A stretch of 39,646 bases of DNA from a bacterium (lineage in GTDB: Bacteria; ARS69). The notes below the pieces were generated by a model. The model ran no database searches, was not told where the DNA came from, and worked only from the letters and a program-made list of their open reading frames with translations. This document shows, one piece after another, positions 6,446 through 34,761 of the stretch. The position numbers and the translations under genes are program-made. How positions within the stretch are numbered: the first letter of the stretch is position 1; each line of letters opens with the position of its first letter. Location: positions 1 through 39,646 of the forward strand of contig JALGZR010000034.1 in assembly GCA_025774805.1 (NCBI GenBank). The letters run 5' to 3'.

Positions 6446-6606
6446 GGGGTCTCCGGCTCCTCCGTCGGGTGCGCGGCCGGCGCGCGGGAGCGCGACCGAC
6501 GACGGGGTGATCCCGTTCCGGCTCCTCCGCGGGATGCGCGACCGTGAGGCTTCACGACGCGAAGGAGCGTGGAAGCTCGCAAGTTATCGCCGTTCGCCCC
6601 GGCCGG

Positions 6607-9561: not shown

Positions 9562-9611
9562 GACGACCTCGGACGGACGGGAGGAAGACCGGAGGACGGT
9601 GATCGTGACTC

Positions 9612-9685
9612 GCCTGCATATCTCACCAGACTCCGCTGCGGCAGCGGCGAAGCCGCGCGACGAGCCTGGTGAGTAATGCAGGCTA
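9612..9685 (-). repeat. Palindromic element, copy A (short form)
   Basis: End arms GCCTGCATATCTCACCAG (9612-9629) and CTGGTGAGTAATGCAGGC (9666-9683) pair with two mismatches. The interior reads, on the minus strand, GGCTCGTCGCG then CGGCTTCGCCGCTGCCGCAG, so it equals the outer parts of copies C and D without their central domain of about 100 bases. It lies in the divergent spacer between uvrA and the gene at 9820, the only copy that does not touch a stop codon. Family and function are unknown. Confidence 0.85.
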
Positions 9686-9819
9686 GCGGACGCGAGGGAG
9701 CGAAATATAGGGGCTGGCACCGACAGGGTCAAACGAGGCGGGCCATTTGCGCCCCGGCGTCGGCTCGGATAGGATTCTCGGGGTACCCCGCCCCGATCTC
9801 CGCCCACCGTGAGGCCGCC

Positions 9820-15141: not shown

Positions 15142-16011
15142 GTGGAGTTGCTCCTCGCGTTTCTCACCGGTTTGGCTCGGCGCATTCCCCTTCGAGTCGG
15201 ATACCGGCTCGCCGACCTGGCGTCCGAGGCCCATCTCCTGCTCTTTCCCCGGCGGCGGATCGCGGTCGAGGAGAATCTGCAGGTCCTCCGCGGGTACGAT
15301 CGCGACGGCCGGGCGCTCGTGCGACAGGTCTTTCGCAACTACGGGCGCTACCTCTTCGAGCTCCTCCGGGGCCCCGACGTCCCCGAGATGAGGGTCGTCT
15401 TCCAGGGGCGGGAGATCCTGCGCCGCGCCCTGTCCGCGGGCCGGGGAGTGGTTTTCGCGCACCTCCACACGGGCAACTTCGACGTCGCCGGAGTCCGGAT
15501 CGCCCGGGAGGGGCTGAGGATCAACACGGTGTCCGGGATCCGGCTGACCCGGGGGTGGACGGAGGAGCTCACCCGGAGGCACGAGGAGTGCGGGATTCGG
15601 GTGATCCGGCCGGAGGGCTCGGTGACTCGGGAGCTGGGCCGGGGGCTCGGGAGGAACGAGGCGGTCGCCCTTCCCCTCGACGGAAACGTGTTCCGCCGCG
15701 GGATCGCAGTTCCCCTGTGTGGACGCGTGATCGAGCTGCCGACCGGCCCGGTCCGCCTGGCCGGGCGCTTCGGGGCCCCCCTGATTCCCGTGTATTGCGT
15801 TCGCGACGGTGACCGGACTATGGTGACCCGGTTCCTACCCGAGGTGCCGGTGGAATCGACCTCGGAGGAGTCGGTGCGGCGGGCCATGGTCCTGCTGGCC
15901 GACCGGTTGGGACGGTCCCTCGAAGACCACCCGGAGCAGTGGATGATCTTCCGGCGGTTCTTCGCCCTGGGGTCGGAGGAGCCGTCGTCGAGCGCGGAGG
16001 AGGCGGCGTGA
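15142..16011 (+). CDS. LpxL/PatA-superfamily lipid acyltransferase
   Basis: 289 residues. Member of the lysophospholipid acyltransferase superfamily (lipid A LpxL/HtrB, actinobacterial PatA), acting at the inner membrane. A hydrophobic N-terminus is followed by the HxxxxD catalytic motif in HLHTGNFD (H109, D114), then RPEGSVTRELGRGL and ALPLDGNVFRRGIAVPLCG, and the end RPEQW-type motif DHPEQWMIFRRFF seen in LpxL. The start is uncertain: GTG 15142 is used, but TTG 15148 has AAGGAG five bases upstream. Its stop overlaps the start of the next glycosyltransferase gene (GTGA), so the two are co-translated. That pairing resembles PatA-PimA and suggests a glycolipid substrate rather than lipid A. 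Confidence 0.85.
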   Translation: MELLLAFLTGLARRIPLRVGYRLADLASEAHLLLFPRRRIAVEENLQVLRGYDRDGRALVRQVFRNYGRYLFELLRGPDVPEMRVVFQGREILRRALSAGRGVVFAHLHTGNFDVAGVRIAREGLRINTVSGIRLTRGWTEELTRRHEECGIRVIRPEGSVTRELGRGLGRNEAVALPLDGNVFRRGIAVPLCGRVIELPTGPVRLAGRFGAPLIPVYCVRDGDRTMVTRFLPEVPVESTSEESVRRAMVLLADRLGRSLEDHPEQWMIFRRFFALGSEEPSSSAEEAA

Positions 16012-17144
16012 GGATCGCGATCGTGACGCAGCCGTACTACCCGCAGAACGGGGGCGTCTCGGAGAACGTGCACTACACCGCGAGGGAGCTCCGAGGGCTC
16101 GGTCACGAGGTGGACATCATCACCTCCCGGTTTCGAACCGAGCGGCAGAGTCAGAACGGTGTCCGACGCATCGGCCACAACATCCTGCTCCCCCACCTGG
16201 GCGCGTTCGCCAACGTCAATGCCGGCTTCCGTCTCGGCCGGGAGATGGAGCGGATCTACGGCTCGGCGGACTACGACGTGGTTCACGTCCAAGAGCCGCT
16301 CTCTCCCACGCTTCCACTGGTGGCCATCGAGCGCGCGCCGGAGAACGCCGTCGTCGTGGGGACCTTCCACGCCTCCTCGCCCCAGGCCGTCGGGTACCGG
16401 CTGGCGCGACCGTTCCTTCAGCGTCACTCCCAGCGGCTCGACGGCCGGATCGCGGTCTCCCAAGCCGCGCGCCGTTTCATCGCCCGCTACTTCGACGAGG
16501 AGTACCGGATCATCCCCAACGGCGTGGACCCCGGGCGATTCCACCCCGGCGTGGATCCTCTGCAGGACTACGGATCGGACCGCCCCACGATTCTCTTCGT
16601 CGGACGCTTCTATCCGCGCAAGGGCCTGCCCATCCTCCTCTCCGCCCTTCCCCGAATCGCGAGCCGGATTCCCCGACTGCGGGTGCTCGTCGTCGGGGGG
16701 GGGCCTCTCGGGCCCTGGTTTCGCTTCCTGGCCCGGTCGGCGCCCTGCGAGATCCGATTCCTGGGGGAGCTCGACGCCGGGGAGATTCCCCGCGCCTATC
16801 GCACGGCCGACGTCTTCGCGGCTCCCTCGACCGGACAGGAGAGCTTCGGCATCGTCCACCTGGAGGCCATGGCCTCGGGCGTACCGATCGTCGCGAGCGA
16901 CATCGAGGGCTACCGGGAGATCCTCGACTCGGGCCGGGAGGCCATCCTGTTCCCCAACCGGGACCCCGTCGCCCTGGCCGACGCCGTGATCCGCGTCCTG
17001 ACCGACCCCCTTCTGAGTCGCTCGATGGCCCTCGCAGGGAGGGAGAAGGCGTTGCGCTTCTCGTGGGCCACGGTCGCGCGGGAACTGGAGACCTACTTCT
17101 TCGATCTCCTCGACCGGAAGCAGCGGATCCGCCTCGCGTCCTAG
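16008..17144 (+). CDS. GT4 glycosyltransferase, PimA-like
   Basis: 378 residues, GT-B fold retaining glycosyltransferase. Start GTG 16008 overlaps the upstream stop (GTGA) and has GGAGGAGG before it. The N-terminal domain begins VRIAIVTQPYYPQNGGVSENVHYTARELRGLGH, as in PimA and related mannosyltransferases. The donor domain has PTILFVGRFYPRKGLPILL and the E(x7)E-type motif in TGQESFGIVHLEAMASGVP. A NDP-sugar, probably GDP-mannose, would be transferred to a lipid at the membrane face; the exact acceptor is inferred from the neighbouring acyltransferase. The TAG stop (17142-17144) forms the first bases of repeat element B. Confidence 0.9.
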   Translation: MRIAIVTQPYYPQNGGVSENVHYTARELRGLGHEVDIITSRFRTERQSQNGVRRIGHNILLPHLGAFANVNAGFRLGREMERIYGSADYDVVHVQEPLSPTLPLVAIERAPENAVVVGTFHASSPQAVGYRLARPFLQRHSQRLDGRIAVSQAARRFIARYFDEEYRIIPNGVDPGRFHPGVDPLQDYGSDRPTILFVGRFYPRKGLPILLSALPRIASRIPRLRVLVVGGGPLGPWFRFLARSAPCEIRFLGELDAGEIPRAYRTADVFAAPSTGQESFGIVHLEAMASGVPIVASDIEGYREILDSGREAILFPNRDPVALADAVIRVLTDPLLSRSMALAGREKALRFSWATVARELETYFFDLLDRKQRIRLAS

Positions 17145-17170
17145 CCCGCATTTCTCACCAGGCTCGTCCC
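17142..17170 (+). repeat. Palindromic element, copy B (single arm)
   Basis: Begins with the stop codon TAG of the preceding gene, then CCCGCATTTCTCACCAGG and CTCGTC, matching the left arm of copies C and D. No matching right arm occurs in the following 130 bases, so this is a remnant or solo arm. Confidence 0.75.
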
Positions 17171-17282: not shown

Positions 17283-17945
17283 TCAGGTCACGTGCTTCGA
17301 GACGAGCTTCGTCATCTCGAACATGCTCACCTGGCGCTTGCCGCCGAACACTTTCCGCAGCTTCTCGTCCGCATTGATGTTCCGCCGGTTGACGTTGTCC
17401 TGAAGCTTGTGCCGCTTGATGTAGTCCCACAGCTTCTTCGTGATCTCGGTTCGAGGCAGGGGCTTCGAACCGACGACCGCCGCGAGATCGGCGTCCGGCG
17501 TCAGCGGACGCATGAACGCCGGGTTCGGCTTCCGCTTGGATTTCACCTTGCGCTTGGTCTTGCGCTTGGCCTTGGCCTTCACCTTCCGCTTGACCTTGGT
17601 CTTGCGCTTGGTCTTCCGCTTCGCCTTGGCCTTGGTGCGGCGCTTGGTCTTCCGCTTCGCCTTGGCCTTGGTCTTGCGCTTGGTCTTCCGTTTGGCCTTG
17701 GCCTTCGTGCGGCGCTTGGTCTTCCGCTTGGCCTTGGCTTTCGTGCGGCGCTTGGTCTTCCGCTTGGCCTTGGCTTTCGTGCGGCGCTTGGTCTTCCGCT
17801 TCGCCTTGGCCTTCGTCTTGCGCTTGGCCTTGGCTTTCGTGCGGCGCTTGGTCTTCCGCTTCGCCTTGGCCTTCGTCTTGCGCTTGGCCTTCGACTTCGC
17901 CTTCCGTCTGGACTTCGCCTTGGACCGTGACTTGGCCATCGCCAC
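17283..17945 (-). CDS. SWIB-domain protein with histone-like Lys/Arg-repeat N-terminal tail
   Basis: About 220 residues. Residues 1-137 (counting from ATG 17939) are almost only Lys, Arg, Ala and Thr: KAKAKRKT occurs nine times, mostly alternating with KRRT or KRKT. Residues 138-218 form a SWIB/MDM2-like domain (PNPAFMRPLTPDADLAAVVG, ELTKKLWDYIK-like EITKKLWDYIKRHKLQD, then RRNINADEKLRKVFGG). SWIB domains occur in eukaryotic chromatin remodellers and in some bacteria, including chlamydiae. The tail should bind DNA non-specifically, so a nucleoid-associated role is likely. GTG 17945 is preferred as start because AGGAGG lies seven bases upstream; ATG 17939 is the alternative. A strong terminator follows the gene. 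Confidence 0.88.
   Translation of the reverse strand: MAMAKSRSKAKSRRKAKSKAKRKTKAKAKRKTKRRTKAKAKRKTKAKAKRKTKRRTKAKAKRKTKRRTKAKAKRKTKRRTKAKAKRKTKRKTKAKAKRKTKRRTKAKAKRKTKRKTKVKRKVKAKAKRKTKRKVKSKRKPNPAFMRPLTPDADLAAVVGSKPLPRTEITKKLWDYIKRHKLQDNVNRRNINADEKLRKVFGGKRQVSMFEMTKLVSKHVT
17556..17873 (-). repeat. Intragenic tandem repeat coding the Lys/Arg-rich tail
   Basis: Mostly 36-base units coding KAKAKRKT plus KRRT or KRKT, with one 24-base unit. Units differ mainly at third codon positions, so the protein pattern is kept. Copy number may vary between strains and may be prone to assembly collapse. Confidence 0.85.
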
Positions 17946-18196
17946 CGCGATACCTCCTGGAAGCGGGGAATCGGAAACACACCCGTGACGGACACGCCGC
18001 AAAATTGGACCGGAAGCGGTGGGAAGACAAGCTTTTTTGGCAGGGTCGAGAGGAAATCGTCACCCCTCGCCGCGACGGCCGCGGCCGCGCCTCGGGTCCG
18101 GCGGGGGCGTCGCCGGACGCCACCACGGCGAAGTCACCCCACTCCTGGACGGGACCCCGAGGCCGTGAGACCATGCGGCCCGGCCGGGAGGTGTCC

Positions 18197-22030: not shown

Positions 22031-23133
22031 TGCCCCGGATCGACGCCTTCCTCCAGCTCGGCCGGGAGCAGGGTGGCTCCGACATCCACTTCACCGTGGG
22101 TCTGCCCCCGCTCGTTCGCCTCGACGGGGATCTCCTTCCGCTCAAGTACCGGGAGCTCACGGAGGAGGAGGCGGCCGCCCTGGTCACCGAGATCCTCGAC
22201 CCGGATCACCGCCGCGTCTTCGACGAGAGAGGCTCGGTCGACCTCTCCTACTCGTCCGAGGAGGTGGGACGCTTCCGGATCAACGTCTGCCGCCACGTCC
22301 GCGGGATCGGAGCGGTCTGCCGGGCCGTGCCGAGCACGCCGCCGCGCCTGACCAACCTCGGTCTGCCGAAGACCGTGGGGCGCTTCGTGAAGCTCCACTC
22401 CGGTCTCGTTCTGGTGACCGGATCCGCCGGCACCGGCAAGTCGACGACGCTGGCCGCGATGATCGAGGAGATCAACCGGGCGGAGTGCCTGAACATCATC
22501 ACGTTGGAGGACCCGATCGAGTTCGTCTACCAGAGTCGAAACTCCCTCATCGTCCAGCGGGAGCTCGGCGCCCACGTCGCCTCGTTCCGGGACGGCTTGC
22601 GCGCAGCGCTCCGCGAGGATCCGGACGTGATCCTCGTCGGGGAGCTGCGGGATCCCGAAACGATTCAGCTCGCCATCGAGGCGTCGGAGACCGGACACCT
22701 CGTCTTCGGCACCCTCCACACGCGCGGCGCCGCCCAGACGATCGACCGGATCATCGACTCCTTCCCCGCGGAAGCTCAGGCCCAGGTGCGGATCACCCTC
22801 GCCGACAACCTCCGCTGCGCGGTTTCCCAGGAGCTCGTGCGGGCGGCGGACGGACGGGGGCGGCGCGCGGTGTGCGAGATCCTCGTGGTGACTCCCGCGG
22901 TCTCCCAGCTCATCCGCGACGGCAAGACGTTCCAGATTCCCAGCGCCATCGCCACCGGTCGCCGCTCCGGCATGCAGCTCATGGACGCGGCGCTCCACGA
23001 CCTCGTCCGCGTCGGAGAGATCGATCCGGACGAGGCGTTCCTCAAGGCGGCCGACAAGAAGGAGTTCATCCCTCACGTGACGCGCTTGGAGCTGCTCGAC
23101 ATGGTCGGGCCGCCCGCCCCGGAGGACCCGTGA
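22030..23133 (+). CDS. PilT/PilU-type retraction ATPase, paralogue 1
   Basis: 367 residues, hexameric secretion-superfamily ATPase that powers type IV pilus retraction at the inner-membrane base. N-terminal PAS-like domain begins MPRIDAFLQLGREQGGSDIHF. Walker A is GSAGTGKST (131-139), differing from the usual GPTGSGKS; the Asp box is ITLEDPIEFVY, Walker B DPDVILVGELRDPET, and the His box GTLHT. The ATG shares one base with the kinase stop (TGATG), and its stop overlaps the next start (GTGA). The divergent P-loop and longer acidic tail suggest an accessory PilU-like role, but this is inferred. Confidence 0.92.
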   Translation: MPRIDAFLQLGREQGGSDIHFTVGLPPLVRLDGDLLPLKYRELTEEEAAALVTEILDPDHRRVFDERGSVDLSYSSEEVGRFRINVCRHVRGIGAVCRAVPSTPPRLTNLGLPKTVGRFVKLHSGLVLVTGSAGTGKSTTLAAMIEEINRAECLNIITLEDPIEFVYQSRNSLIVQRELGAHVASFRDGLRAALREDPDVILVGELRDPETIQLAIEASETGHLVFGTLHTRGAAQTIDRIIDSFPAEAQAQVRITLADNLRCAVSQELVRAADGRGRRAVCEILVVTPAVSQLIRDGKTFQIPSAIATGRRSGMQLMDAALHDLVRVGEIDPDEAFLKAADKKEFIPHVTRLELLDMVGPPAPEDP

Positions 23134-24203
23134 GCCGGATCCACGCCTTCCTCGAGCTGGTCGTGAACCAGGGCGGCTCCGACCTCCACGTCGTTTCCGG
23201 CCTCATGCCCCGAATCCGCATCCACGGACGGCTCGAGCCGGTCCGGTTCCGAGAGCTCTCCTCGGAGGAGATCCAGCGGATCCTCGCGGAGTTCATGAGG
23301 GGGGATCAACGCGAGCGGTTCGAGCGGGGCATGTCGGTCGACTTCGCGTACGTGGCCGAGGGCATCGGGCGGTTTCGCGTGAACGTCTACCGCCACCTGC
23401 GTGGAATCGCGGCCGCGTTCCGGGTCATTCCCTCGAAGATCCCCACGCTCGCCGAGGCGGGACTCCCGGACGTTGTGGGTCGCACCGTCCAGACCCCCCG
23501 CGGGCTCACCCTCGTGACCGGTCCCACCGGGTCGGGAAAGTCGACCACCCTCGCCGCGATGGTCGACCACGTCAACAGGACGCGGAAGGGTCACATCATC
23601 ACGATCGAGGACCCCGTGGAGTTCCTCCACGAGTACCGGAACTGCGTCATCACCCAGCGGGAGATCGGAGTGCACTCTCCGACGTTCCACGACGCGCTCG
23701 TCGACGCGGTTCGCGAGGACCCGGACGTCATCCTGGTCGGGGAGATGCGCGACCTCGAGACGATCCAGCTCGCGTTGACCGCGGCGGAGACGGGGGTCCA
23801 GGTGCTCGCCACGCTTCACACGAACGGCGCCGTCCGCTCGGTCGAGCGGCTCGTGGGGGTCTTCCCCGCCCGGATCCAGGAGCAGATCCGGTCCGTCCTC
23901 GCCGGCTCGCTTCGTATGGTGGTCTCGCAGCAGCTGGCGCGGAGGGCGGACGGCTCGGGTCGGGTGATCGTTCCGGAGATCCTCATCAACAACCAGTCCG
24001 CCGCCGCCATGATCCGGAAGGGGCGACCCCACCAGCTCGCGTCGGTGATTCAGGCCGGCGGACGGGCGGGCATGTGCAGCCTGGACGCGAACCTCCAGGA
24101 GCTCCTCCGGAAGGAGATCATCTCGGGCGAGGAGGCCTACAACCTCGCCGTCGACAAGGCGCGATTCGAGCGATTCCTGGTGGGGGAGACGGCGCTCGCC
24201 TAG
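23130..24203 (+). CDS. pilT: PilT-type twitching motility ATPase, paralogue 2
   Basis: 357 residues. GTG 23130 overlaps the previous stop (GTGA) with GGAGG four bases upstream. It starts MSRIHAFLELVVNQGGSDLH and has the canonical Walker A GPTGSGKST, Asp box ITIEDPVEFLHEY, Walker B DPDVILVGEMRDLET, His box ATLHT, and the C-terminal PilT region SAAAMIRKGRPHQLASVIQAGG. This closer match to canonical PilT makes it the likely main retraction motor, with its neighbour as partner. It is the last gene of the FHA-kinase-PilT-PilT operon; its TAG stop (24201-24203) is the first triplet of repeat element C. Confidence 0.93.
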   Translation: MSRIHAFLELVVNQGGSDLHVVSGLMPRIRIHGRLEPVRFRELSSEEIQRILAEFMRGDQRERFERGMSVDFAYVAEGIGRFRVNVYRHLRGIAAAFRVIPSKIPTLAEAGLPDVVGRTVQTPRGLTLVTGPTGSGKSTTLAAMVDHVNRTRKGHIITIEDPVEFLHEYRNCVITQREIGVHSPTFHDALVDAVREDPDVILVGEMRDLETIQLALTAAETGVQVLATLHTNGAVRSVERLVGVFPARIQEQIRSVLAGSLRMVVSQQLARRADGSGRVIVPEILINNQSAAAMIRKGRPHQLASVIQAGGRAGMCSLDANLQELLRKEIISGEEAYNLAVDKARFERFLVGETALA

Positions 24204-24380
24204 CCTGCATTTCTCACCAGGCTCGTCGCGAGGCTGCGGATAGTCGTGGCTGGCGAGGAGATGGGGTGCTTTCGCCCGAGGCGGGGCCGTAGCCCCGTCG
24301 CAGGGCGGAGGCGCCCCAACGACGAAGCCAGGCGCGGCTTTGCCGCTGCCGCAGCAGAGGCTGGTGAGATATGCAGGCTA
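24201..24380 (+). repeat. Palindromic element, copy C (long form)
   Basis: Outer arms GCCTGCATTTCTCACCAG (24203-24220) and CTGGTGAGATATGCAGGC (24361-24378) pair with one mismatch. Inner helices: CTGGC (24250-24254) with GCCAG (24327-24331); CGCCC (24273-24277) with GGGCG (24303-24307); apical CGGGGC-CGTA-GCCCCG (24282-24297). Colinear with copy D with a single-base length difference between the arms. Its first bases are the pilT stop. Confidence 0.9.
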
Positions 24381-24398
24381 GACTGCATATCTCACCAG
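24361..24398. terminator. Perfect 16-bp palindrome between convergent genes
   Basis: CTGGTGAGATATGCAG (24361-24376), loop GCTAGA, then its exact reverse complement (24383-24398). It is made from the right arm of copy C followed by a second, solo arm. It covers the stop codon of the minus-strand dehydratase gene (TGA in the arm) and lies where pilT and that gene converge. A bidirectional terminator role is inferred. Confidence 0.6.
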
Positions 24399-25357
24399 GG
24401 CAGGGCGTCGAGGTTCACGTTTCCGCCGCTGAGAATCACGCCGACCCGCTCGATGTCGTCGAGCGCCCGAAACTCCTCGGACAGGACGGCCGCCACCGCG
24501 ACGGCCGCGCTCGGCTCGATGAGGAGTTTCGTCCGTTCCCAAAAGAGCCGCATCGCCTCGACGATGGCCTCGTCGGGAACGGTGAGAACCGCCTGGACCC
24601 GGTCGCGCAGGATCGGCCAGGTCCGCTCCCCGAGGCTCGTGAGGAGGCCGTCCGCGATCGTGTCCGGGCTCTCTTGGGGAAGCCGTCTCCCGGCCGCTTT
24701 AGACCGGGCGGCGTCGTCCGCTCCGCGCGGCTCGGCCGCGAACACGCGGACACGAGGATCGGTCTCCGTGGCCGCGACCGCCACGCCCGCGACGAGGCCG
24801 CCGCCGCCGACCGGAGCCACGATGGCGTCCAGTCCCTCGACCTGTTCGAGCAGCTCGACACCCACGGTCCCCTGGCCGGCGATGACGTCGGGATGATCGT
24901 AGGGAGGGATCAACGTGCCCCCCGTCACCCGGAGGACCTCCTCCGCCGTCTCTTCACGGGCCGCCAGGGTGGGCGCGCAGGTCACGATGCGGGCGCCGTA
25001 CTCCTCGGCCGCCCGCCGCTTCACCGGGTTCGCGTTCTCCGGCACGACGACGTGCGCGGGTACGCCGACCACTCGCGCCGCGAGCGCCAGCGCCTGCGCG
25101 TGGTTCCCGGAGCTGTGCGACACGACGCCCCGCGCGGCCACGTCCGGAGCGAGGCGCACGAGGGCGTGATACGCGCCCCGGATCTTGAAGGTTCCCCCCC
25201 GCTGCAGGTTCTCGCACTTGAAGTGGAGGCGACGTCCCGAACGGAGGTCGAGCGATCGGGACGTCGCGACCGGCGTGCGGTGCACGATGTCCGCGATACG
25301 AGTCGCGGCGGCCCGCACCGAGGCGAGATCGGTGTCCTGCGGTCCGGCCTCCTCCAT
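24392..25357 (-). CDS. PLP-dependent threonine/serine dehydratase-like enzyme
   Basis: 321 residues, fold-type II PLP enzyme of the threonine dehydratase/serine racemase group, without the C-terminal ACT-like regulatory domain of biosynthetic IlvA. PLP Lys58 lies in GGTFKIRGAYHA. Also seen are the substrate loop SHSSGNHAQALALAA, the phosphate-binding glycine run APVGGGGLVAGVA, and the end SGGNVNLDAL. The likely reaction is threonine to 2-oxobutyrate or serine to pyruvate; racemase activity cannot be excluded. ATG 25357 shares one base with the stop of the DUF456 gene. The final TGG-TGA lies inside a repeat-element arm, so the native C-terminus may have been altered slightly. Confidence 0.88.
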   Translation of the reverse strand: MEEAGPQDTDLASVRAAATRIADIVHRTPVATSRSLDLRSGRRLHFKCENLQRGGTFKIRGAYHALVRLAPDVAARGVVSHSSGNHAQALALAARVVGVPAHVVVPENANPVKRRAAEEYGARIVTCAPTLAAREETAEEVLRVTGGTLIPPYDHPDVIAGQGTVGVELLEQVEGLDAIVAPVGGGGLVAGVAVAATETDPRVRVFAAEPRGADDAARSKAAGRRLPQESPDTIADGLLTSLGERTWPILRDRVQAVLTVPDEAIVEAMRLFWERTKLLIEPSAAVAVAAVLSEEFRALDDIERVGVILSGGNVNLDALPW

Positions 25358-25911
25358 CAGGATCCTCCGGTCAGGGTCTCGAAGGCGGCCCCGGCGACGA
25401 CCACGGCCCCCGCCGTGGCGAGAGCGCCCTTGACGGTCACGGCCAGAAAGCGGCCGGTGGTCGCGTGCGCGCCGACCCTCAGGGAGGGCTCGAGCCGTCG
25501 ATCCCGGGCGTACTCACCCAGCACGGCGCCCGCGAACGCCCCGGCGAAGCCGCCGACCAGCGTCCCCAGCACGGGAACCACGGGGGTCCCGAGGACGGCG
25601 CCCGCGATGCCCCCGACGAACGCGCCGACGACGCCCTGGCGCGACGCGCCTTTCCGTGCCACCCAAACGCTGCCGAGCAGGGCCTCGACGACCTCTCCGA
25701 TCCCGAGGAGCGCGGCGAAGACGAGCAGGCGGGGCCAACCGATGGCGTGGAAACCGTAGGCGAGATCGTAGAGCACGGCCAGGGCGAGGGCGATCCACCC
25801 TCCGGGGAGCGCGAGAAGGACCGCGAAGCAGGACGCCGCCAGAAGGGCAATCCAGACGATCGCCGCCGTCCACTGGCCGACGCTTCCCGCCGTCGCAAGG
25901 GCGCCCTCCAC
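25357..25911 (-). CDS. DUF456 family membrane protein
   Basis: 184 residues, Gly/Ala/Val-rich polytopic inner-membrane protein. The N-terminal pair of helices has LLALPGGWIALALAVLYDL, the middle has GIGEVVEALLGSVWVARKGASRQGVVGAFVGGIAGAVLG, and the end a helix rich in Ala/Val. The GGIAGAVLGTPVVPVLGTLVGGFAGAF stretch is typical of DUF456 with glycine-zipper helices. Function of the family is not established. Start is GTG 25911 with GGGGAGG upstream. It sits between the slipin and dehydratase genes and is translationally linked to the latter. Confidence 0.8.
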   Translation of the reverse strand: MEGALATAGSVGQWTAAIVWIALLAASCFAVLLALPGGWIALALAVLYDLAYGFHAIGWPRLLVFAALLGIGEVVEALLGSVWVARKGASRQGVVGAFVGGIAGAVLGTPVVPVLGTLVGGFAGAFAGAVLGEYARDRRLEPSLRVGAHATTGRFLAVTVKGALATAGAVVVAGAAFETLTGGS

Positions 25912-25949
25912 GGCGTTCGGTCCTCCCCCATCCGGATCCCTCTCCCGGT

Positions 25950-26705
25950 CTAGCCCGTCTTCTCCGGGTTCGGCATGAACGCCTTCAGCAGATCGAGGGG
26001 CAGGGGGAACACGACCGTCGAGTTGTTCTCCGCCGCGACCTCGACGAGCGTTCCGAGAAAACGGAGCTGGATCGCGGCCGGCTCCCGGCCGATCACGGCC
26101 GCGGCCTGAGCGATCTTCTCGGATGCTTGGAACTCGCCCTCGGCCGTGATGATCTTCGCGCGTCGCTCGCGCTCGGCCTCGGCCTGACGCGCCATGGCCC
26201 GCTGCATCTCCTGGGGGAGATCGACGTGCTTGATCTCCACCGTCGAGACCTTGATTCCCCAGGGATCCGTCTGCCGGTCGAGGATGTCCTGGAGCTGCGA
26301 GTTGATCTCGTCGCGCTGGGACAGGAGCTGATCGAGCTCCGACTGGCCCAGGACCGAGCGGAGCGTCGTCTGGGCGAGCTGGGAGGTGGCGTACATGTAG
26401 TCCTCGACCTCGACGATTGCCCGACCCGGATCCACCACCCGGAAGTAGAGGACGGCGTTGACCTTCACCGAGACGTTGTCCTTGGTGATGATGTCCTGAG
26501 GGGGCACGTCGTAGGCGATCGTCCGCAAGCCCACCTTGACCATCTTTTCCACGAACGGGATCAGCAGAATGACGCCCGGTCCGCGCGCCCCGGTCAGGCG
26601 TCCGAGCCGGAAGATGACCCCCCGCTCGTACTCGCGGAGGATCTTGATCATGTTCGTGAGCAAGAAGAGCACGAAGACGAGAACTGCGATCAGACCGACT
26701 GGCAT
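25950..26705 (-). CDS. Slipin (stomatin-like SPFH/band 7 protein)
   Basis: 251 residues. One N-terminal membrane helix ([20 protein letters not shown]) is followed by the SPFH domain: [47 protein letters not shown] helical coiled-coil tail follows ([22 protein letters not shown]). Slipins form membrane-associated oligomers. The nfeD gene lies 47 bases upstream on the same strand; NfeD-type proteases in archaea cleave the C-terminus of their partner stomatin, so the pair very likely acts together in membrane quality control. Start is ATG 26705. Confidence 0.95.
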
Positions 26706-26752
26706 GACTGCCGCCTTTCCAACCCTTTACGGCGGGTTGCTCAAGAAACGCT

Positions 26753-28108
26753 TCAGGTGCTGGTCCGTTTCCTCACGGTGAGGAGAAGTCCCTTGACGGC
26801 CACCACCTCGATGGAATCCCCGACCCCGATCGTCTCTCCGGCGGTCCCGGAACCGGGTCCGACGGCCTTCCAGATCTCGCCTCGGACCTCCACCTGCCCC
26901 TGGGGGTCCAGCGCGGTCCGGGCGATTCCCGTCAATCCGACCAGCCCTTCCAGCCCGGTCGTCGGCTGCGTTCGCATCGTCTTCACCGAGAGCCACACGG
27001 CCACGATGAACACCAGCGCGGACACGAGAGTGATCGGGAGAATCACGGAGAGGGAGGCCCGCAGCGCCGGCTCGGGTGAATCGAAGAGCATGAGCGCCCC
27101 CAGGACCGAGCAGGTGACTCCCCCCAGAGTGAGCAGTCCGTAGCTCGCCACCTTGACCTCCAGGATGAACATGACCCCCCCGAGAACGATGAGCAAAAGG
27201 CCGGCGAGATTCATGGGCAGGGTCTGCATGGAATAGAGCGCGAGAATGAGGCAGATGGCCCCGATCGCCCCGGGGAAGATGGAGCCCGGGTTCTGCAGCT
27301 CGAAGAAGAGCCCGTAGATCCCCAGCATCATCAGGATGTAGACCACGTTCGGATTCACGAGGTAGGAGAGGATCCGGAACTTGAGCGGGACTCTCTTCTC
27401 CACGACGTCGGCCCCGACGAGACGCAGCGTGACCGTCCCCTCTGCGACCTCCACGGTGCGTCCCTCCACAGCGGCAAAGATCGCCTCCACGTCGTCCGCC
27501 ACGAAGTCGACGACGTCCAGCTCGACGGCCTCCGTCTCGGTGATCGACTCCGCGTCGCGTACCGCGCGCTCGGCCCACTCGGCGTTGCGTCCCCGCCGCT
27601 CCGCGATCGTGCGGACGAACGCCGCGGTGTCGTTGAACATCTTCGAGGCCATGGTGGAGTCGACCCCTCCCCCGAGCATGCTCACGGGGGAGGCGGCGCC
27701 GATGTTCGTGCCGCGCGCCATGACCGCGACGTGCGCCGCCATCGTCAGGAAGGTGCCGGCGGACGCGGCCCGCGCACCGGGCGGGCCGACCCAGACGATC
27801 ACGGGAACCGGGGCCTCGAGAAACTCGGAAACGATGTCGCGGGTCGCGTCGAGCAGCCCTCCCGGAGTGTCCAGCATGATCAGGAGCGCGTCGGCTCCCT
27901 CCTGCTCCGCCTCGGCCAGCGCCCCACTGAAGACGGTGCCGGTCACCGGCGTGATCGCGCCGTCCCAGCGGAGAAGATGCACCCGCGCCGTTCCCTGGGC
28001 GGACCCCTCGCCCGTCGAATCCTCGGCCGCGTCCGCCGGGGGCGACGTGCCGGCGAACGCGGCCAGGATCAGGAGGGCCGGGAGAAGCTCCTTGAATCTT
28101 GCGTGCAT
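26753..28108 (-). CDS. NfeD-type membrane-bound serine protease (ClpP-class)
   Basis: 451 residues. Signal peptide 1-27 (LLILAAFAG...PADA), then a ClpP/SppA-like protease domain with the Ser in GARAASAGTF (S116) and Lys in MASKMFND (K156), matching the Ser-Lys dyad of the archaeal 1510-N protease. Four or so membrane helices follow (about 235-370), then a C-terminal OB-fold NfeD domain (TGLEGLVGLTGIARTALDPQGQVEVRGEIW). This is the long NfeD form. Start is ATG 28108 with GGGGAGG upstream. The first 40 bases overlap the end of recG, and the slipin gene follows, so the protease-slipin pair is kept. Confidence 0.95.
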   Translation of the reverse strand: MHARFKELLPALLILAAFAGTSPPADAAEDSTGEGSAQGTARVHLLRWDGAITPVTGTVFSGALAEAEQEGADALLIMLDTPGGLLDATRDIVSEFLEAPVPVIVWVGPPGARAASAGTFLTMAAHVAVMARGTNIGAASPVSMLGGGVDSTMASKMFNDTAAFVRTIAERRGRNAEWAERAVRDAESITETEAVELDVVDFVADDVEAIFAAVEGRTVEVAEGTVTLRLVGADVVEKRVPLKFRILSYLVNPNVVYILMMLGIYGLFFELQNPGSIFPGAIGAICLILALYSMQTLPMNLAGLLLIVLGGVMFILEVKVASYGLLTLGGVTCSVLGALMLFDSPEPALRASLSVILPITLVSALVFIVAVWLSVKTMRTQPTTGLEGLVGLTGIARTALDPQGQVEVRGEIWKAVGPGSGTAGETIGVGDSIEVVAVKGLLLTVRKRTST

Positions 28109-30141
28109 GATTCCTCCCCGGGGAGGTCTTCCTCCCTCTCGAGCAGAAGGTCCGCCACCTGCCAGGCCCGCTCACAGAGATGGGCGATCCGGCGCGGCGC
28201 GCCGGAGCCGAGCCCCGCGAAGAGCCCGACGTGCCCGCTCTGGCGGAGTCCCAGGAGCTCTCCCGGACCACGGATCGCCAGATCGATCTCCGCGAGGCGC
28301 ATTCCGTCGTCCACCGTGACGAACGCCTCCAGCCGTCGGCGGGACTCCTCGGAGGCATCGCCGCTCTCCACCACCAGACAATAACCCCTCTGGCCTCTTC
28401 GCGCGATCCGTCCCCGCAGCTGGTGGAGCTGGGCCAACCCGAGACCTTCCGCTCCCTCGACCCAGAGAATCGTGGCGCCCGGCACGTCGATGCCCACCTC
28501 GACGAGCGTCGTCGTCACGAGGGCGGCGAGCTCTCCGGACTGGAACCTCCCGAGAATGCTCTCCCGCTCCTCCGGCGGAGCGCGCCCGTGGATGAGCCCC
28601 ACGTCGAGCCCGGAGAGCGCCCCCTGAATCAGCTCCGCGTGGAGCCCGGCCGCCCCCCGCGCGTCGCCCTCGATACGGGGGCGCACGAAGAAGGCCTGCT
28701 CGCCGGCGAGCAAACGCTCTCGGATCCGCGCGAGAAATGCGTCGCGCCCGCTCTCGGGAAGGATCCGGGTGAGTACCTCTCCGCGGGCGTCCGGCCGGGG
28801 CGCGAGCCGCGAAATCTCGGAGTCGCCGAAGGCGAGGAGCGCGAGCGAGCGGGGGATCGGCGTCGCGGTGAGGGAGAGACGGTGCGGGGTCCGCGCCTTT
28901 GCCAGCAGCGCTTCCCGCTGTCCGACACCGAAGCGGTGTTGCTCGTCGATCACGACGAGACCGAGTCGGGCGAAGCGGGTGCGTTCCGCCAGCAGCGCGT
29001 GCGTGCCGATCGCGAGATCGGCGTCCCCCGCCTCCAGGCGTGCGCGCGCGCGCCGCGCGTCCCCCGCCGTCAGGGTGCCGCTGAGGAGGACCACCCCCTC
29101 CGCCCCTCCCGGCAGCAGGGCCTCCGCCGTCCGGCAGTGCTGGCGGGCCAAGAGGTCGGTGGGGGCCAGCAGCGCGCACTGGAATCCCAGGGAGCGCGCC
29201 TCCTCCATCGCCGCGAGAGCGACGACGGTCTTCCCCGAGCCGACCTCGCCGCAGAGCATGCGGCCCATGGGGCTCGAACCGTGGAGGTCCCGGGCCGCCT
29301 CCTCGATCGCGGCGCGTTGCGACGGAGAGGCCGCGAACGGAAGGCGGCGCAGGAACTCGTCCGCTCCCCCGCCCCGGCCGTCCGCCCGGGGTGCCCGCCG
29401 ACGCTTCCGAACGAGGAGTCGGCGCTTCATCGCGACCTCGATCGGAAGGAGCTGGTCGAACAGCAGCCGCTCGCGTCCCCGCTCCGCCTCCGAGAGGTCC
29501 CGGGGACGGTGCGCGAGGCGGCAGGCGCGCGCGAACGTCACCACCCCGGCGCCGGCGCGGACCTCCTCCGGCCACGGATCGGGCAGGTCGTCCAGCCGCT
29601 CCAACGCGTCGAGGATCGCCTCCCGGAGAAGCCGCTGCGACACCCCCTCGGTGATCGGATAGATCGGTCGGATTCCCACGAGCCGATCCGGGGCGGGCTC
29701 CTCGGGTCCCTCGAGCCGGGCGAACTCCGGGTGGAGCAGGGCTCGGTCCTTCGAGAGGCGCCCCGAGGCCGCGAGCTCGGCGTCGACCGTCAGATCCCGG
29801 GCCAGGTACGCGGCGTGGAACCAGAGAAGCTCGATGCGGCCGGTCCCGTCCTCCAGCGTGGCGCGCAGCGTTCCTCCCCTCCGGCCGAACCGCCGGAGCG
29901 TCCGCTTCACGACCTTGCCCCGCACGGCGACACACTCTCCGGGGGTCGCCTCCCGCGCCCGCCGGATCGGGATCCACTTCCCCCGATCCTCGTAGCCTCG
30001 GGGAACGTGCCGCAGCAGATCGACGACGCGCTCGATCCCCAGGCGGGACAGGCGCTCCGCCGTCACCGGACCGATGCCCGCGAGTCCGGTTACGGGGGAG
30101 ACGGGAGTGAGGTCGGAAGGCGCGGGGCAGGGCGACGGCAA
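28069..30141 (-). CDS. recG: ATP-dependent DNA helicase RecG
   Basis: 690 residues, near the usual length. Regresses stalled forks and branch-migrates Holliday junctions. An N-terminal HhH-like and OB wedge region (about 15-150) is followed by the helicase core: Walker A MLCGEVGSGKT, DEQH box (VVIDEQHRFGVGQRE), motif III LTATPIPRSLAL, and the end VEGAEGLGLAQLHQLRGRIARRGQRGYC. The start is TTG 30141 with GGAG six bases upstream; no ATG or GTG gives a complete wedge domain. Its last 40 bases overlap nfeD. Repeat element D lies between its start and the ftsZ stop. Confidence 0.95.
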   Translation of the reverse strand: MPSPCPAPSDLTPVSPVTGLAGIGPVTAERLSRLGIERVVDLLRHVPRGYEDRGKWIPIRRAREATPGECVAVRGKVVKRTLRRFGRRGGTLRATLEDGTGRIELLWFHAAYLARDLTVDAELAASGRLSKDRALLHPEFARLEGPEEPAPDRLVGIRPIYPITEGVSQRLLREAILDALERLDDLPDPWPEEVRAGAGVVTFARACRLAHRPRDLSEAERGRERLLFDQLLPIEVAMKRRLLVRKRRRAPRADGRGGGADEFLRRLPFAASPSQRAAIEEAARDLHGSSPMGRMLCGEVGSGKTVVALAAMEEARSLGFQCALLAPTDLLARQHCRTAEALLPGGAEGVVLLSGTLTAGDARRARARLEAGDADLAIGTHALLAERTRFARLGLVVIDEQHRFGVGQREALLAKARTPHRLSLTATPIPRSLALLAFGDSEISRLAPRPDARGEVLTRILPESGRDAFLARIRERLLAGEQAFFVRPRIEGDARGAAGLHAELIQGALSGLDVGLIHGRAPPEERESILGRFQSGELAALVTTTLVEVGIDVPGATILWVEGAEGLGLAQLHQLRGRIARRGQRGYCLVVESGDASEESRRRLEAFVTVDDGMRLAEIDLAIRGPGELLGLRQSGHVGLFAGLGSGAPRRIAHLCERAWQVADLLLEREEDLPGEESCTQDSRSFSRPS

Positions 30142-30230
30142 CGGGGTCTCCGCGGCGGCTCAGGACACGAGATCGCGTCGATCATGGAACGATGGGGTAC
30201 ACAGCGCAAGCCACACCACGCCGTCGATTC

Positions 30231-30408
30231 AGCCTGCGTCTCTCACCAGGCTCGTCGCGAGGCTGTGGCTCGTCGTGTCTGACGAGGAGACGGGGGGCTT
30301 TCGCCTGAGGCGGGGCCATAGCCCCGTCGCAAGGCGGAAGGGTCCCGAAGACGAAGTCAGGCGCGACGAGCCGCTGCCGCAGCAGAGGCTGGTGAGAGAC
30401 GCAGGCTA
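30231..30408 (+). repeat. Palindromic element, copy D (long form)
   Basis: Outer arms GCCTGCGTCTCTCACCAG (30232-30249) and CTGGTGAGAGACGCAGGC (30389-30406) are perfectly complementary over 18 bases. Inner helices: GGCTCGTCG (30267-30275) with CGACGAGCC (30364-30372); CTGAC (30279-30283) with GTCAG (30356-30360); CGCCT (30302-30306) with AGGCG (30332-30336); apical CGGGG/CCCCG. The ftsZ stop TAG (30408-30406) is the last triplet of the element. No coding frame inside is credible. Confidence 0.92.
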
Positions 30409-31584
30409 ATCCATCTGCTTGCGCAGGAACGTCGGCGTCTCGAGATCGTCGTCGAGGAACGAGCGAATCACGCGCTTCGCCGGCTCTTCCCCCCGTCCCG
30501 TCTGGGGATCGCTCCGCTGGTACGCGGGCCGGTCGAGCTCCACCGGAGAGAGCGCGGGAAACGTGACGGTCTCGGCGGCGACGGCCTGAACCCGCTCCCG
30601 TTCCTCGACCCGCTCCGCGACCCCGGATTCTCCGATTCCCGTGGCGATGACGGTGACCAGGATCTTCCCCTTCACCGCGGGGTCGATGACCGCGCCGAAG
30701 AAGAGATTCGCCTCCTCGCCGGCCGCCTCGTAGATGATCGACGTCGCGTCGTTGACCTCGGTCAGGGAGAGGTCCTCGCCCCCCGTGATGTTCACCAGGA
30801 CCCCCCGGGCTCCGGACACCGACACCTCCTCGAGGAGCGGACTCGTCACCGCCTGCCGCGCGGCGTTCTGGGCCCGGTCGTCGCCCTCGGCCGATCCGGT
30901 GCCCATGAGCGCGTCCCCCATCTTCGACATGACCGTGCGCACGTCGGCGAAGTCGAGGTTGACGAGCCCCGGAACGCTGATGAGATCGGAGATACCGCGG
31001 GTCGCCTGGAAGAGGACGTCGTCGGCGATCCGGAAGGCCTCCGTGAGGGGGGTGTCCTTCTGGACGATCGACAGCAGGCGCTGATTCGGAATGACGATCA
31101 GGGTGTCGACCTTCTCCTTGAGAGCGGCCAGCCCTTCCGTCGCCTGCCGCATGCGGTGGAGCCCCTCGAAATCGAACGGCTTCGTGACGACCCCGACGGT
31201 CAGCGCTCCGAGCTCCTTGGCGACTTCGGACACGATGGGTGCGGCCCCCGTTCCCGTGCCGCCGCCCATCCCTGCCGTCACGAAGACCATGTCGGATCCC
31301 TCGAGGGACTCCGCGATCAGTTCCCGACTCTCCTCCACGGCGCGACGGCCCAGCTCGGGATTGCCCCCCGACCCGAGGCCGCGGGTGACGGAGTTCCCCA
31401 GTTGGATCCGAACCGGAGCGATGGCGGCTCCGAGCGCTTGCAGGTCGGTATTGGCGGCGATGAAATCACAACCGGTGAGGTTGCCCTCGATCATCCGGTT
31501 GATGGCGTTGCCGCCGGCCCCGCCGACTCCGATCACCCGGATCGAAGCGGGATTCCGGGGGTCATCGGCAAACTCGATGGCCAT
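30406..31584 (-). CDS. ftsZ: Cell division protein FtsZ
   Basis: 392 residues, tubulin-like GTPase that forms the division ring. Seen: [18 protein letters not shown], tubulin signature [13 protein letters not shown]7-region [13 protein letters not shown], and a variable linker from about 320 (rich in Glu, Arg, Pro). The C-terminal peptide [12 protein letters not shown] is the likely FtsA-binding tail. ATG 31584 follows GGGAGGGGAAGG. It is last in the dcw cluster but separated from ftsA by about 195 bases that hold repeat element E; element D follows its stop. It may therefore have its own promoter or be processed from the dcw transcript. Confidence 0.98.
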
Positions 31585-31708
31585 GTCCTTCCCCTCCCAT
31601 GAGGGCCCGGGCGGGCCCTGCCCACATCCACACCACGCCTTGCATACACCATTCGAGCGGCCGTGCCTAGCTTTTCCAAGCGCTCGAGAGAGACTTCAGG
31701 GGCTTCCA

Positions 31709-31782
31709 GCCCGCCTGTCTCGCCAGCCTCTGCGGCGGCGCCGGCAATGCCGCGCGACGAGCCTGGTGAGAAACGCGGGCTA
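31709..31782 (-). repeat. Palindromic element, copy E (short form)
   Basis: Arms GCCCGCCTGTCTCGCCAG (31709-31726) and CTGGTGAGAAACGCGGGC (31763-31780) pair imperfectly. The interior on the minus strand runs GGCTCGTCGCGCGGCATTGC then CGGCGCCGCCGCAGAGG, the same short layout as copy A. The ftsA stop TAG (31782-31780) is its first triplet. It lies in the ftsA-ftsZ spacer. Confidence 0.82.
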
Positions 31783-33009
31783 GAAAAACTCCGCGACCCA
31801 CCGTCGCACCGAGCCGGTCACGCGCTCCAGGATCCGCCGCCCCCCGAACGAACCCCTCTGACCCTCCGCCTGACGGTAGGCATAGTGCAGAAGCCCGACC
31901 GCGGTCGCGCACTCGGGCGACTCGAGATCCTCCTCGTACCCGAGGGTCCCGCCCGGGATCCCGAGCTTGGCCGGCAGGTTGAAGAGGTGCTCTGCGAGAG
32001 CGACCGTTCCGTCGAGCATCGCCCCCCCTCCGGTGAGAACGAGCCCCGCGGCGAGGAGATCCCAGTAGTCGGTCTTCTTCACCTCCCGGTAGGAGAGCGC
32101 GAGAATCTCCTCCATGCGGGGTCGGACGATCGAGTTCAGGATCTCGCGGCTCACCGCCCGCTCGGGGCGGCCGTTCACGCCCGGCACGACGAGCGGCTCG
32201 TCCTTGCGCTCGATGGCGAGGAGGGAAGCCTGACCCCGCTTGATCTCCTCGGCGGCGGCCAGCGGCGTCCGAAGCCCGATCGCGATGTCGTTCGTCACGT
32301 TCGATCCGCCGACGCCGACCACCGCGGTGTGCTTCAAGCCCCCGTCCGCGAAGACGGCCACGTCGGTCGTGCCGCCCCCGATGTCCACGAGCACCGCGCC
32401 CAGCTCCATCTCGTCCTGGGTGAGCACGGAGCAGCTTCCCGCGACCGATCCGAGGACGACGTCGTCCACGTCGAGCCCGGCCCGGCGGACGCACTTGAGG
32501 AGGTTCTGAATGGGGGTGCTGGCCCCGGTGATCACGTGGACCTCGGTCTCGAGGCGCACGCCGATCATCCCGACCGGGTCGAGGATCCCGCTCTGATCGT
32601 CGACCGTGAACTCCTGAGGGAGAACGTGGATGATCTCGCGATCACCGGGCAGAGCGATGGCGCGGGCGGCCTCGATCACCCGCTCGACGTCGCCGCGGCT
32701 GATCTCGTTGTCCGGGTTGCGGACCGCGATGACGCCCCGGCTGTTGATGCTCCGGACGTGATCGCCGGCGATGCCGACCGTGACCGAGCCGATCTCGACG
32801 GCGGCCGTCTTCTCCGCGGCCGCGACCGCCTCCTCGATGGAGCGGATCGTCCGCTCCAGATTGACGACGACGCCCTTCTTGATTCCTCGCGTCGCGCTCG
32901 TCCCGACCCCGAGGATCCGGAGCTGCTCGCCCTCCGTGGGCTCGGCGACGATCGCCACCGTCCGAGTCGTGCCGAGATCCAGTCCGGCCAGGATGCCGTT
33001 CGATGCCAT
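31780..33009 (-). CDS. ftsA: Cell division protein FtsA
   Basis: 409 residues, actin-like ATPase that tethers FtsZ to the membrane. It opens with MASNGILAGLDLGTTRTVAIVAE (phosphate 1 loop). The SHS2-like 1C insertion follows (VTVGIAGDHVRSINSRGVIAV), then VLVDIGGGTTDVAVF (phosphate 2) and GLVLTGGGAMLDG (adenosine site). The end RRWVAEFF is the expected amphipathic membrane helix, complete just before the TAG stop, which is shared with repeat element E. ftsQ ends 33 bases upstream. Confidence 0.97.
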   Translation of the reverse strand: MASNGILAGLDLGTTRTVAIVAEPTEGEQLRILGVGTSATRGIKKGVVVNLERTIRSIEEAVAAAEKTAAVEIGSVTVGIAGDHVRSINSRGVIAVRNPDNEISRGDVERVIEAARAIALPGDREIIHVLPQEFTVDDQSGILDPVGMIGVRLETEVHVITGASTPIQNLLKCVRRAGLDVDDVVLGSVAGSCSVLTQDEMELGAVLVDIGGGTTDVAVFADGGLKHTAVVGVGGSNVTNDIAIGLRTPLAAAEEIKRGQASLLAIERKDEPLVVPGVNGRPERAVSREILNSIVRPRMEEILALSYREVKKTDYWDLLAAGLVLTGGGAMLDGTVALAEHLFNLPAKLGIPGGTLGYEEDLESPECATAVGLLHYAYRQAEGQRGSFGGRRILERVTGSVRRWVAEFF

Positions 33010-33042: not shown

Positions 33043-33915
33043 TCAAGTGCTGGCAGCGGCCGTCCAGACGGCGGTCCCCTCCGACATCAGCCGCAGAGTA
33101 CCCCGGGACGCCCCCGAGGCGTCCAGCTTTTCGAGGAACGCCGCGACGTTTCGCACTGCGCTCTCGGGGGAGACCGCGTTCTCGATCTGAACGGTGAAGT
33201 CCCGATCCGGGAACCGGATCCGGTCGGTTCCCGACTCGAGGTCTTCCCGTCCCAGCTCCACCTCCACCGGCTCGTCCCGGGCCAGACGGCAGCGGAGCAG
33301 GGTCTCCACCCACCGCACGCCGCGGGCGAGCGCCGCGGGATCGAGACCTCCCCTCCGGTCCCCGCGAATCAAGGGGAGGGCGTCCAGGTCGGCCGGGGCC
33401 AGGCCGGGCAGGATCCGAAGATCGGAGGCCACGCCGTAGCTCGATCCCTCCACGATCACGCGGGCGAGCGCCCGGCACTCCCTGACCTCGAGGCGAACCC
33501 GCCCCGGCCAGGGCCGGCGCACGGCCACCGACTCCACCCAGGGGCTCGAGCGGATGCGCCGGCCGACCGCGTCCCGGTCGATCGCGAGCCACGACTCCCC
33601 CTCCCGCAATCCGGAGAGCTCGAGGATCTCCTCGGCGGGCACGCGCTCTCCTCCCGTGACCTCGATCTCCCGTATCTCGAGCGACTCGAGCTCAGCGACC
33701 CGGTCGAACGCGATCGGGCCTCCGAACCAGACCGCGGCGGCCAGCGCGCCTCCCAGGATCCCCGCGAGGATTCGACTCCACCGCACCGGGGTTCGGGGCG
33801 GCCCCGGAGAAGTCCGTCGTGCCGGGCTCCGGCCCCTTCTCCGCGGGGTTCGCCCCGCCGCCCGGGACGTGCGGCGGTGGGAAGCCCCGGGGCGGCCCGC
33901 GGGAGCGCGTCTCAT
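33043..33915 (-). CDS. ftsQ: Cell division protein FtsQ (DivIB-like)
   Basis: 290 residues. A very basic cytoplasmic N-terminus (MRRAPAGRPGASHRRTSRAA) is followed by one membrane helix (ILAGILGGALAAAVWF), a POTRA domain (LESLEIREIEVTGGERVPAEEIL...SPWVESVAVRRPWPGRVRLEV) and the FtsQ β-domain. ATG 33915 overlaps the true-frame murB stop (ATGA at 33915-33912). The reading frame is also continuous with the N-terminal part of murB because of the murB frameshift, but that fusion is not meaningful. FtsQ recruits FtsL/FtsB and FtsW/I at the septum; the order murB-ftsQ-ftsA is classic dcw. Confidence 0.9.
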   Translation of the reverse strand: MRRAPAGRPGASHRRTSRAAGRTPRRRGRSPARRTSPGPPRTPVRWSRILAGILGGALAAAVWFGGPIAFDRVAELESLEIREIEVTGGERVPAEEILELSGLREGESWLAIDRDAVGRRIRSSPWVESVAVRRPWPGRVRLEVRECRALARVIVEGSSYGVASDLRILPGLAPADLDALPLIRGDRRGGLDPAALARGVRWVETLLRCRLARDEPVEVELGREDLESGTDRIRFPDRDFTVQIENAVSPESAVRNVAAFLEKLDASGASRGTLRLMSEGTAVWTAAAST

Positions 33916-34761
33916 GCGAAGCCCACCTTGCGCACCTCGAGCTCCAGCTCCACGCCGTGCTCGGCCAGGATGCGCTCCCGGATCCGGTCCACGAGCTCCA
34001 GCACGTCGGACGCCGTCGCCCCGCCCCGGTTGATGATGAAGTTGCCGTGGACGGGAGAGGCCGGGCGGATTCCGGAAGATGCACCCGGCGGAGGGCTCCC
34101 GCTCCGGTTGGTCGCGCCGTCGCTCCGCCTGGTGGCCGCGAATCGTCTCGGTCACGCGGGCCGGATCCTCCCCGCGGATCTCGAATCGGACGGATGTCAC
34201 GACCCCGTTCTCGGGAAGACCGTCCGCCCCGCGATACCGGAACCGGAGGTCCTCCCGCGACAGGACGCGCGGCTGCCCGTCGGCGTCCAGCAGCGTCGCG
34301 TCGAGCAGGGCCTCGGCGGTCGTGCCGCCGCGGGTACCCGCGTTGGTCGCGACCGCTCCCCCGATCGTTCCCGGAATCCCCGCTCCGAACTCGAGACCGC
34401 TCCACCCCTCCCGCATGGAGGAACGCAGCACGCGACTCCAGAGGACGCCCGCTCCGACCCGGAGCGTCTCGGGGCCCTCGAGGTCGATTCCGCCCAGTCC
34501 GCTCGCGATCCGCACGACGACGCCGTCGAACCCCGCGTCGGAGACGAGGAGATTCGAACCGTTTCCGAGGACGAGCATCGGCGCCCCCGCGTCCCGGATC
34601 CGGCGGAGCACCTCCGCGAGGACGGCGCTCGACTCCGGGGTGACGACCACGGCGGCCGGACCGCCGATCTTGAACGTCGTCAGGCGGGCGAGCGGCACCT
34701 GCGTCCGGACCTGGAGCCCGTCCATTCCGGCGAGGTCGTCGACGAGCCGGGCGGTCTTCAT
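33912..34761 (-). pseudogene. murB: UDP-N-acetylenolpyruvoylglucosamine reductase, internal deletion and frameshift
   Basis: FAD enzyme that makes UDP-MurNAc in the cytoplasm. Start ATG 34761 (MKTARLVDDLAGMDG) gives a normal FAD domain (RLTTFKIGGPAAVVV, LGNGSNLLVSDAGFDGVVV, FGAGIPGTIGGAVATNAG) up to SAGCIFRNPPG near residue 234. The proper C-terminus, PVHGNFIINRGGATASDVLELVDRIRERIL...VRKVGFA, is read in another frame from 34055 to the TGA at 33914-33912. About 22-25 conserved residues between these parts are missing, so the reading frame breaks at 34055-34062. The intact ends and ATGA overlaps on both sides suggest a recent deletion or an assembly error rather than decay. Confidence 0.88.

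Follow-up and report, generated by a model that had tools for sequence, protein, structure and literature searches.

The locus examined here raises the question of what two long palindromic copies, designated C and D, represent, and of whether their base pairing is maintained independently of their sequence. The window, i.e. the whole stretch of 39,646 nucleotides that was analysed, is contig 156 of a 5.1-Mb draft genome (G000), and five genomes represent its phylum in this work.

Hairpin copies in the window

The first-pass annotation aligned C with D and described paired changes in three helices. The two copies (178 and 177 nt) are indeed colinear, with an identity of 86.6% and a single 1-nt indel, and all three changes are present: pair A24209-T24372 in the outer arm of C becomes G30238-C30400 in D, CTGGC/GCCAG in the second helix becomes CTGAC/GTCAG, and CGCCC/GGGCG in the third becomes CGCCT/AGGCG. 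Copy D also has the 9-bp inner stem and the perfect outer stem attributed to it, although the latter comprises 19 rather than 18 bp. The window is richer in such sequences than was first seen, containing in addition two short copies, a solo end, and a partial copy fused to C (Table 1). Gene calls rely on a simple codon-usage script with Pfam backing in the window, and some are uncertain, e.g. around 6600–11800.

Table 1. Hairpin elements in the window and their edges; positions are those of the window.
Feature	Position	Strand	Remarks
Copy C, long form	hairpin 24202–24379; between its two CTAG 24204–24377	+	strand set by GA-rich loops
CTAG, left edge of C	24200–24203		supplies the TAG stop of the T2SSE-family ATPase gene lying upstream (23130–24203, +)
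CTAG, right edge of C	24378–24381		common to C and the adjacent partial copy
Partial further copy	24382–24399	+	left end only, fused directly behind C
Loop 1 of C, 5' side	24223–24233	+	TCGTCGCGAGG
Loop 1 of C, 3' side	24349–24358	+	CCGCAGCAGA
Copy D, long form	hairpin 30231–30407; element 30233–30405	+	flanked by TCAG and CTAA; outer stem perfect when counted from 30231; adjoins the ftsZ stop on its right (ftsZ 30406–31584, −)
Short copy (ends and loop 1)	9611–9684; element 9613–9682	−	flanks CTCG and CTAG
Short copy between ftsA and ftsZ	31708–31781; element 31710–31779	−	CTAG at 31780–31783 contains the ftsA stop codon
Solo left end with CTAG	17141–17168 (end at 17143)	+	TAG is the stop codon of a glycosyltransferase gene (15939–17144, +)

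Abundance and anatomy of the family

The ends of this family (family 1) read CC(C/T)GCATTTCTCACCAGG. Allowing up to 2 mismatches, 440 to 455 matches are found genome-wide (e.g. 233 + 207), as against 6 to 11 for a reversed-pattern control (e.g. 3 + 3), which is far more than chance would give, and a covariance model of the core recovers approximately 95 long copies. In a 440-kb sample strong inverted repeats number 27, compared with 7 in shuffled sequence; paired ends in this sample lie 51 to 204 bp apart, many of them at 177–178 bp, short forms retain the ends and often loop 1 as well, and solo and degenerate ends are common. The copies are thus many, dispersed, alike, short and non-coding, with terminal inverted repeats in common, as expected of MITEs. 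One copy, L082 (G000:C79:72988-73191), is 204 nt long and is tandemly duplicated internally over ∼26 nt near its tip.

The layout of a long copy is CTAG, an arm of ∼20 bp, helices parted by asymmetric purine-rich internal loops, and a GC-rich tip. The loop pairs consist of TCGTCGCGAGG opposite CCGCAGCAGA, GGCGAGGAG opposite CGACGAAGCC, and CCCGAGGCG opposite CGTCGCAGGG. The genome harbours two or more additional hairpin families, among them two edged by CTAG (family 2, CCCGGACTATTCATGAAG; family 3, CCTTGATCTTCCGGAAAA), and loops 1 and 3 reappear in family 2 despite its different helices. Rfam covariance models applied to the window and 17 related loci gave no match to the element, their sole hit being a tRNA in L145. 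A separate near-perfect palindrome with 27-bp arms (L071, G000:C8:76974-77100) has no CTAG edges and lies outside these families.

Transposase type of the ends

The earlier suggestion of a MITE is borne out, and the type of transposase can be named as IS1380; the suggested connection to RAYT/REP elements is not supported, as the genome has no Y1 transposase. More broadly, the draft genome yielded no DDE_3 (IS630), Y1/RAYT or DDE_Tnp_1 transposase genes. In other genomes the family-1 end bounds or precedes four IS1380 transposase fragments (L261, L262, L266, and L275), and IS1380 transposase matches occur in 8 of 12 genomes with this end. A complete IS1380 element from another genome (L108, 1629 bp) carries a TTAG duplication and the ends CCCGGATATTTCATAAA, which are near those of family 2. 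The ends of the hairpin elements match those of an IS1380 element. Equal non-palindromic 4-bp flanks (TCAA, CTAA twice, and TTAG) enclose 4 of 48 related elements from other phyla where 0.67 would be expected (p = 0.002), indicating target-site duplication in related elements with non-palindromic flanks. For comparison, piggyBac elements have CCC ends and a TTAA target, with TTAG, CTAA, and TCAA duplications being rarer, and IS1380 transposases served as the outgroup for piggyBac in one study (PMC10813416).

Taken with their abundance and anatomy, C and D are very probably non-autonomous elements (MITEs) with IS1380/piggyBac-type ends. The only trace of IS1380 found in their own draft genome is a 115-residue remnant on contig 17, with no intact element, and the elements are accordingly described as having IS1380-type ends rather than as proven IS1380 derivatives. 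The IS1380 source of the elements in this genome may since have been lost.

Insertion site and stop codons

The target is YTAR, mostly CTAG. CTAG stands on both sides of 26 of the 52 long copies, and 21 of the 52 start or end exactly at a coding-frame stop codon. In 440 kb there are 112 CTAG, a count that takes in element edges, and 67 of them (∼60%) are at gene stops. Because CTAG is rare and found mostly at gene stops, many copies, C and D included, begin exactly at the TAG of a neighbouring gene, and the preference for CTAG combined with selection against insertion within genes can explain the position behind stops. The placement at stop codons was for this reason dropped as proof of a host function. 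Among copies that abut a gene, 13 lie in sense, 5 in antisense, and 3 in both, which amounts to only a mild bias in orientation.

Adjacent copies have one CTAG in common in five cases and two CTAG in none, indicating that CTAG belongs to the target and not to the element. These common CTAG lend indirect support to target duplication in this genome; CTAG is its own reverse complement, so that a duplication is unreadable from C itself, and the two flanks of D differ. L200 contains a nested insertion that is compatible with a YTAG target. The genomes compared all belong to other genera; an unoccupied site corresponding to a family-1 copy of this genome was seen in none of them, and the ftsA–ftsZ gap of two (G003 and G004) contains neither a hairpin of this family nor CTAG. 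In the sister genus (G002) a hairpin of the superfamily lies directly behind the ftsA stop (L140), in the orientation opposite to that of the copy between ftsA and ftsZ in the window. Orthology of these two hairpins was considered and dropped, given their opposite orientation and identical CTAG target, which make coincidence plausible.

Conservation of base pairing

The claim that base pairing rather than sequence is kept holds between families and genera but is overstated within the family of C and D. Across the 52 long copies the pair is kept in 164 changed cells (116 one-sided and 48 two-sided) and broken in 114. The two-sided cells exceed the 14 expected from shuffles, although they derive largely from a few changes common to many copies. 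Subfamilies have inherited the majority of the compensatory changes, and a single change breaks a pair nearly as often as it keeps one; the evidence from within this young family is modest.

Comparison with G002 is more telling. The outer arms of its four complete copies agree at only 7–11 of 21 positions (33–52%), yet 17–21 of the 21 positions pair. Across the cores of G000 and G002 there are 14 two-sided pairs, as against 5.5 in shuffles and 4–9 in slid controls, and none of 500 shuffles reaches this number; both the core alignment and the structure come from these very sequences, a circumstance that biases the comparison towards the structure. The idea that the loops are more conserved than the helices was rejected for C versus G002, where alignable loops are 65% and helices 70% identical.

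On the strand with the GA-rich loops, family representatives have 87 G-T and 47 A-C mismatches (p = 7e-4, uncorrected for relatedness). The excess of G-T over A-C points tentatively to selection on one single strand, which would be RNA in the simplest case or else single-stranded DNA.

Distribution in other bacteria

Relatives of these elements are found in Gammaproteobacteria, Acidobacteriota, Planctomycetota, and Myxococcota. When GTDB genomes were scanned for exact matches to the family-1 end, most of the matches listed came from Gammaproteobacteria and others from Acidobacteriota, Planctomycetota, Verrucomicrobiota, Myxococcota, and Rhodospirillales; many of the genomes listed contain two such ends ∼240 bp apart, flanked by YTAR and enclosing a long hairpin. 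Acanthopleuribacter pedis KCTC 12899, a cultured bacterium, is among the carriers of related elements. Loop 1 accompanies the same end in contigs of bacterium PFL40, of a gammaproteobacterium, and of a member of the Thermoanaerobaculales (Acidobacteriota). In G002 the core is present in only 5–6 copies, and family-1 ends are not in excess; 5 of 6 core copies are at or near a gene stop, in the orientation opposite to the majority in G000. The family-1 end was absent from IMG/VR viral contigs, and a plasmid collection queried with a 240-bp relative gave no match.

Two individual loci may be added. In G004, a genome from another genus of the same family, a 48-bp palindrome of family-1 type has TTAG and CTAA as its edges (L280, 1499–1550), and in Acanthopleuribacter pedis an element with the same ends contains, in its middle, a run of GGGGCCGACCTTTCGC-like unit repeats (L190, 5855–6163).

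Proposed mechanism and alternative explanations

According to the preferred reading, an IS1380-family transposase supplied in trans would recognise the family-1 ends and direct the element into a YTAR site, in most cases CTAG, with duplication of those 4 bp. In this GC-rich genome CTAG is rare and mainly found at TAG stop codons, and the duplication, by returning CTAG to both edges, would restore the stop codon and leave a hairpin of up to ∼178 nt just behind the gene. Mobilisation by IS1380 would have to have taken place in a lineage where only a remnant remains. The transcribed strand with GA-rich loops would fold as RNA, which may be the reason for the fold being kept. We propose tentatively, as a possibility well short of an even chance, that the GA-loop hairpin is a structured RNA or single-stranded DNA module carried by IS1380-type MITEs in many phyla and kept by compensatory change as a folded strand needed for spreading or for tolerance behind stops.

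Two alternatives concern the mode of transposition. That the elements are MITEs of IS630/Tc1-mariner type, which target TA as Correia and RUP elements do, appears very improbable. TA is indeed present at both edges, CTAG could plausibly serve as the target of elements of that type, and the edges of the short copy in G004 are compatible with TA only; however, a DDE_3 transposase together with a TA-only duplication was not found, the gene being absent from the genome, while relatives have equal non-palindromic 4-bp flanks and the same ends are found on IS1380 fragments. It is likewise improbable that the fold is needed for transposition, i.e. that a hairpin-recognising enzyme or host factor requires the loops. 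Fold matters for transposition in other single-strand mobile DNA, and such a requirement would agree with the reappearance of the loops in other phyla and in families whose ends differ, and with G002 stems that vary while their pairing is retained. Against it, the genome lacks a Y1/HUH-type (Y1_Tnp) transposase, and the IS1380-type ends and 4-bp duplications are signs of a conventional DDE mechanism that acts on double-stranded DNA.

The remaining alternatives concern the reason for pairing, and both seem rather unlikely. The hairpin could be a host-functional RNA (a 3'-UTR stabiliser, processing site or attenuator) selected at gene ends, its mobility being past or secondary. This would accord with copies located just behind stop codons, with the few G002 copies whose divergent outer stems still pair and which mostly lie at or near gene stops, and with the strand bias of G-T over A-C. 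The CTAG target, however, largely accounts for the position, single changes in the young family break pairs almost as often as they keep them, and orientation relative to genes is mixed, with that of G002 opposite to the G000 majority. Alternatively, pairing could be passive, the palindrome arms being homogenised by template switching or gene conversion with no selection on the fold. Quasi-palindrome correction is known in general, and matched arm variants are found even in young short copies, e.g. CATGTCTC/GAGACATG and CATCTCTC/GAGAGATG. Homogenisation would nevertheless tend to erase loops, whereas these stay unpaired and recognisable across families, and the strand bias is not predicted by it.

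Relation to known elements

The elements form a superfamily of hairpin MITEs with IS1380/piggyBac-type ends, a kind of element that is itself already known. No description of the transposase link, breadth, or fold conservation of IS1380-type hairpin MITEs was found in the open literature, most subscription journals being outside the scope of the search. Like the IS1380 family, whose members are relatives of eukaryotic piggyBac, they have CC(C/T) ends and 4-bp duplications of YTAR type (TTAG, CTAA, TCAA, and TAAA; PMC10813416 for piggyBac), and near-identical ends adjoin IS1380 transposase fragments. Unlike that family, they are 50–320 bp long with no coding capacity and carry a long hairpin, for which no origin in an IS1380 element was found.

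Correia/NEMIS, ERIC, and RUP elements are mobile, non-autonomous, and shorter than approximately 200 bp, with inverted ends and long stem-loops when transcribed, some having borrowed their transposase ends from an IS (PMC2229807). The present elements resemble them as short non-autonomous hairpins with inverted ends of the IS-borrowed type but differ in having 4-bp YTAR duplications and IS1380-type ends, whereas in those families the ends carry TA, and RUP has a link to IS630. REP/BIME sequences (GTAG- and CGTC-tagged) are imperfect palindromes that lie outside genes, for the most part downstream of them (PMC3733652). The elements described here are likewise extragenic imperfect palindromes mainly behind genes; REP units, however, are 20–40 bp long, those of GTAG type being tied to RAYT (Y1), whereas the present elements are longer, have another edge, and occur with no Y1 gene.

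Correia/NEMIS, ERIC, and RUP are reported from few genera, in contrast to the several phyla of the present group. For the ERIC and Correia hairpin MITEs, each from a few genera, the reason for keeping the fold is mostly unexplained. A superfamily that spans several phyla, with identifiable transposase-type ends and families of differing sequence but the same fold, opens the question of why a hairpin should be kept to tests, both comparative ones and ones in a host that can be grown in culture. The proposed mechanism would also offer an element a simple route to settle at stop codons with the protein unchanged.

Other features of the window

Three further features of the window were noted. Within the predicted gene at 17292–17930, units of 12 and 18 bp are repeated in a degenerate tandem array (17499–17954; 24 overlapping matches). 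Two neighbouring genes repeat each other at 22493–22769 and 23593–23869 (71% identity over 277 nt, 1100 bp apart), the second being the T2SSE ATPase gene that precedes copy C. Adjoining ftsA and ftsZ, a single open reading frame (33046–34761, −) matches both FAD_binding_4 and an FtsQ-type POTRA domain, and by these matches appears to join an N-terminal part of MurB type to FtsQ.
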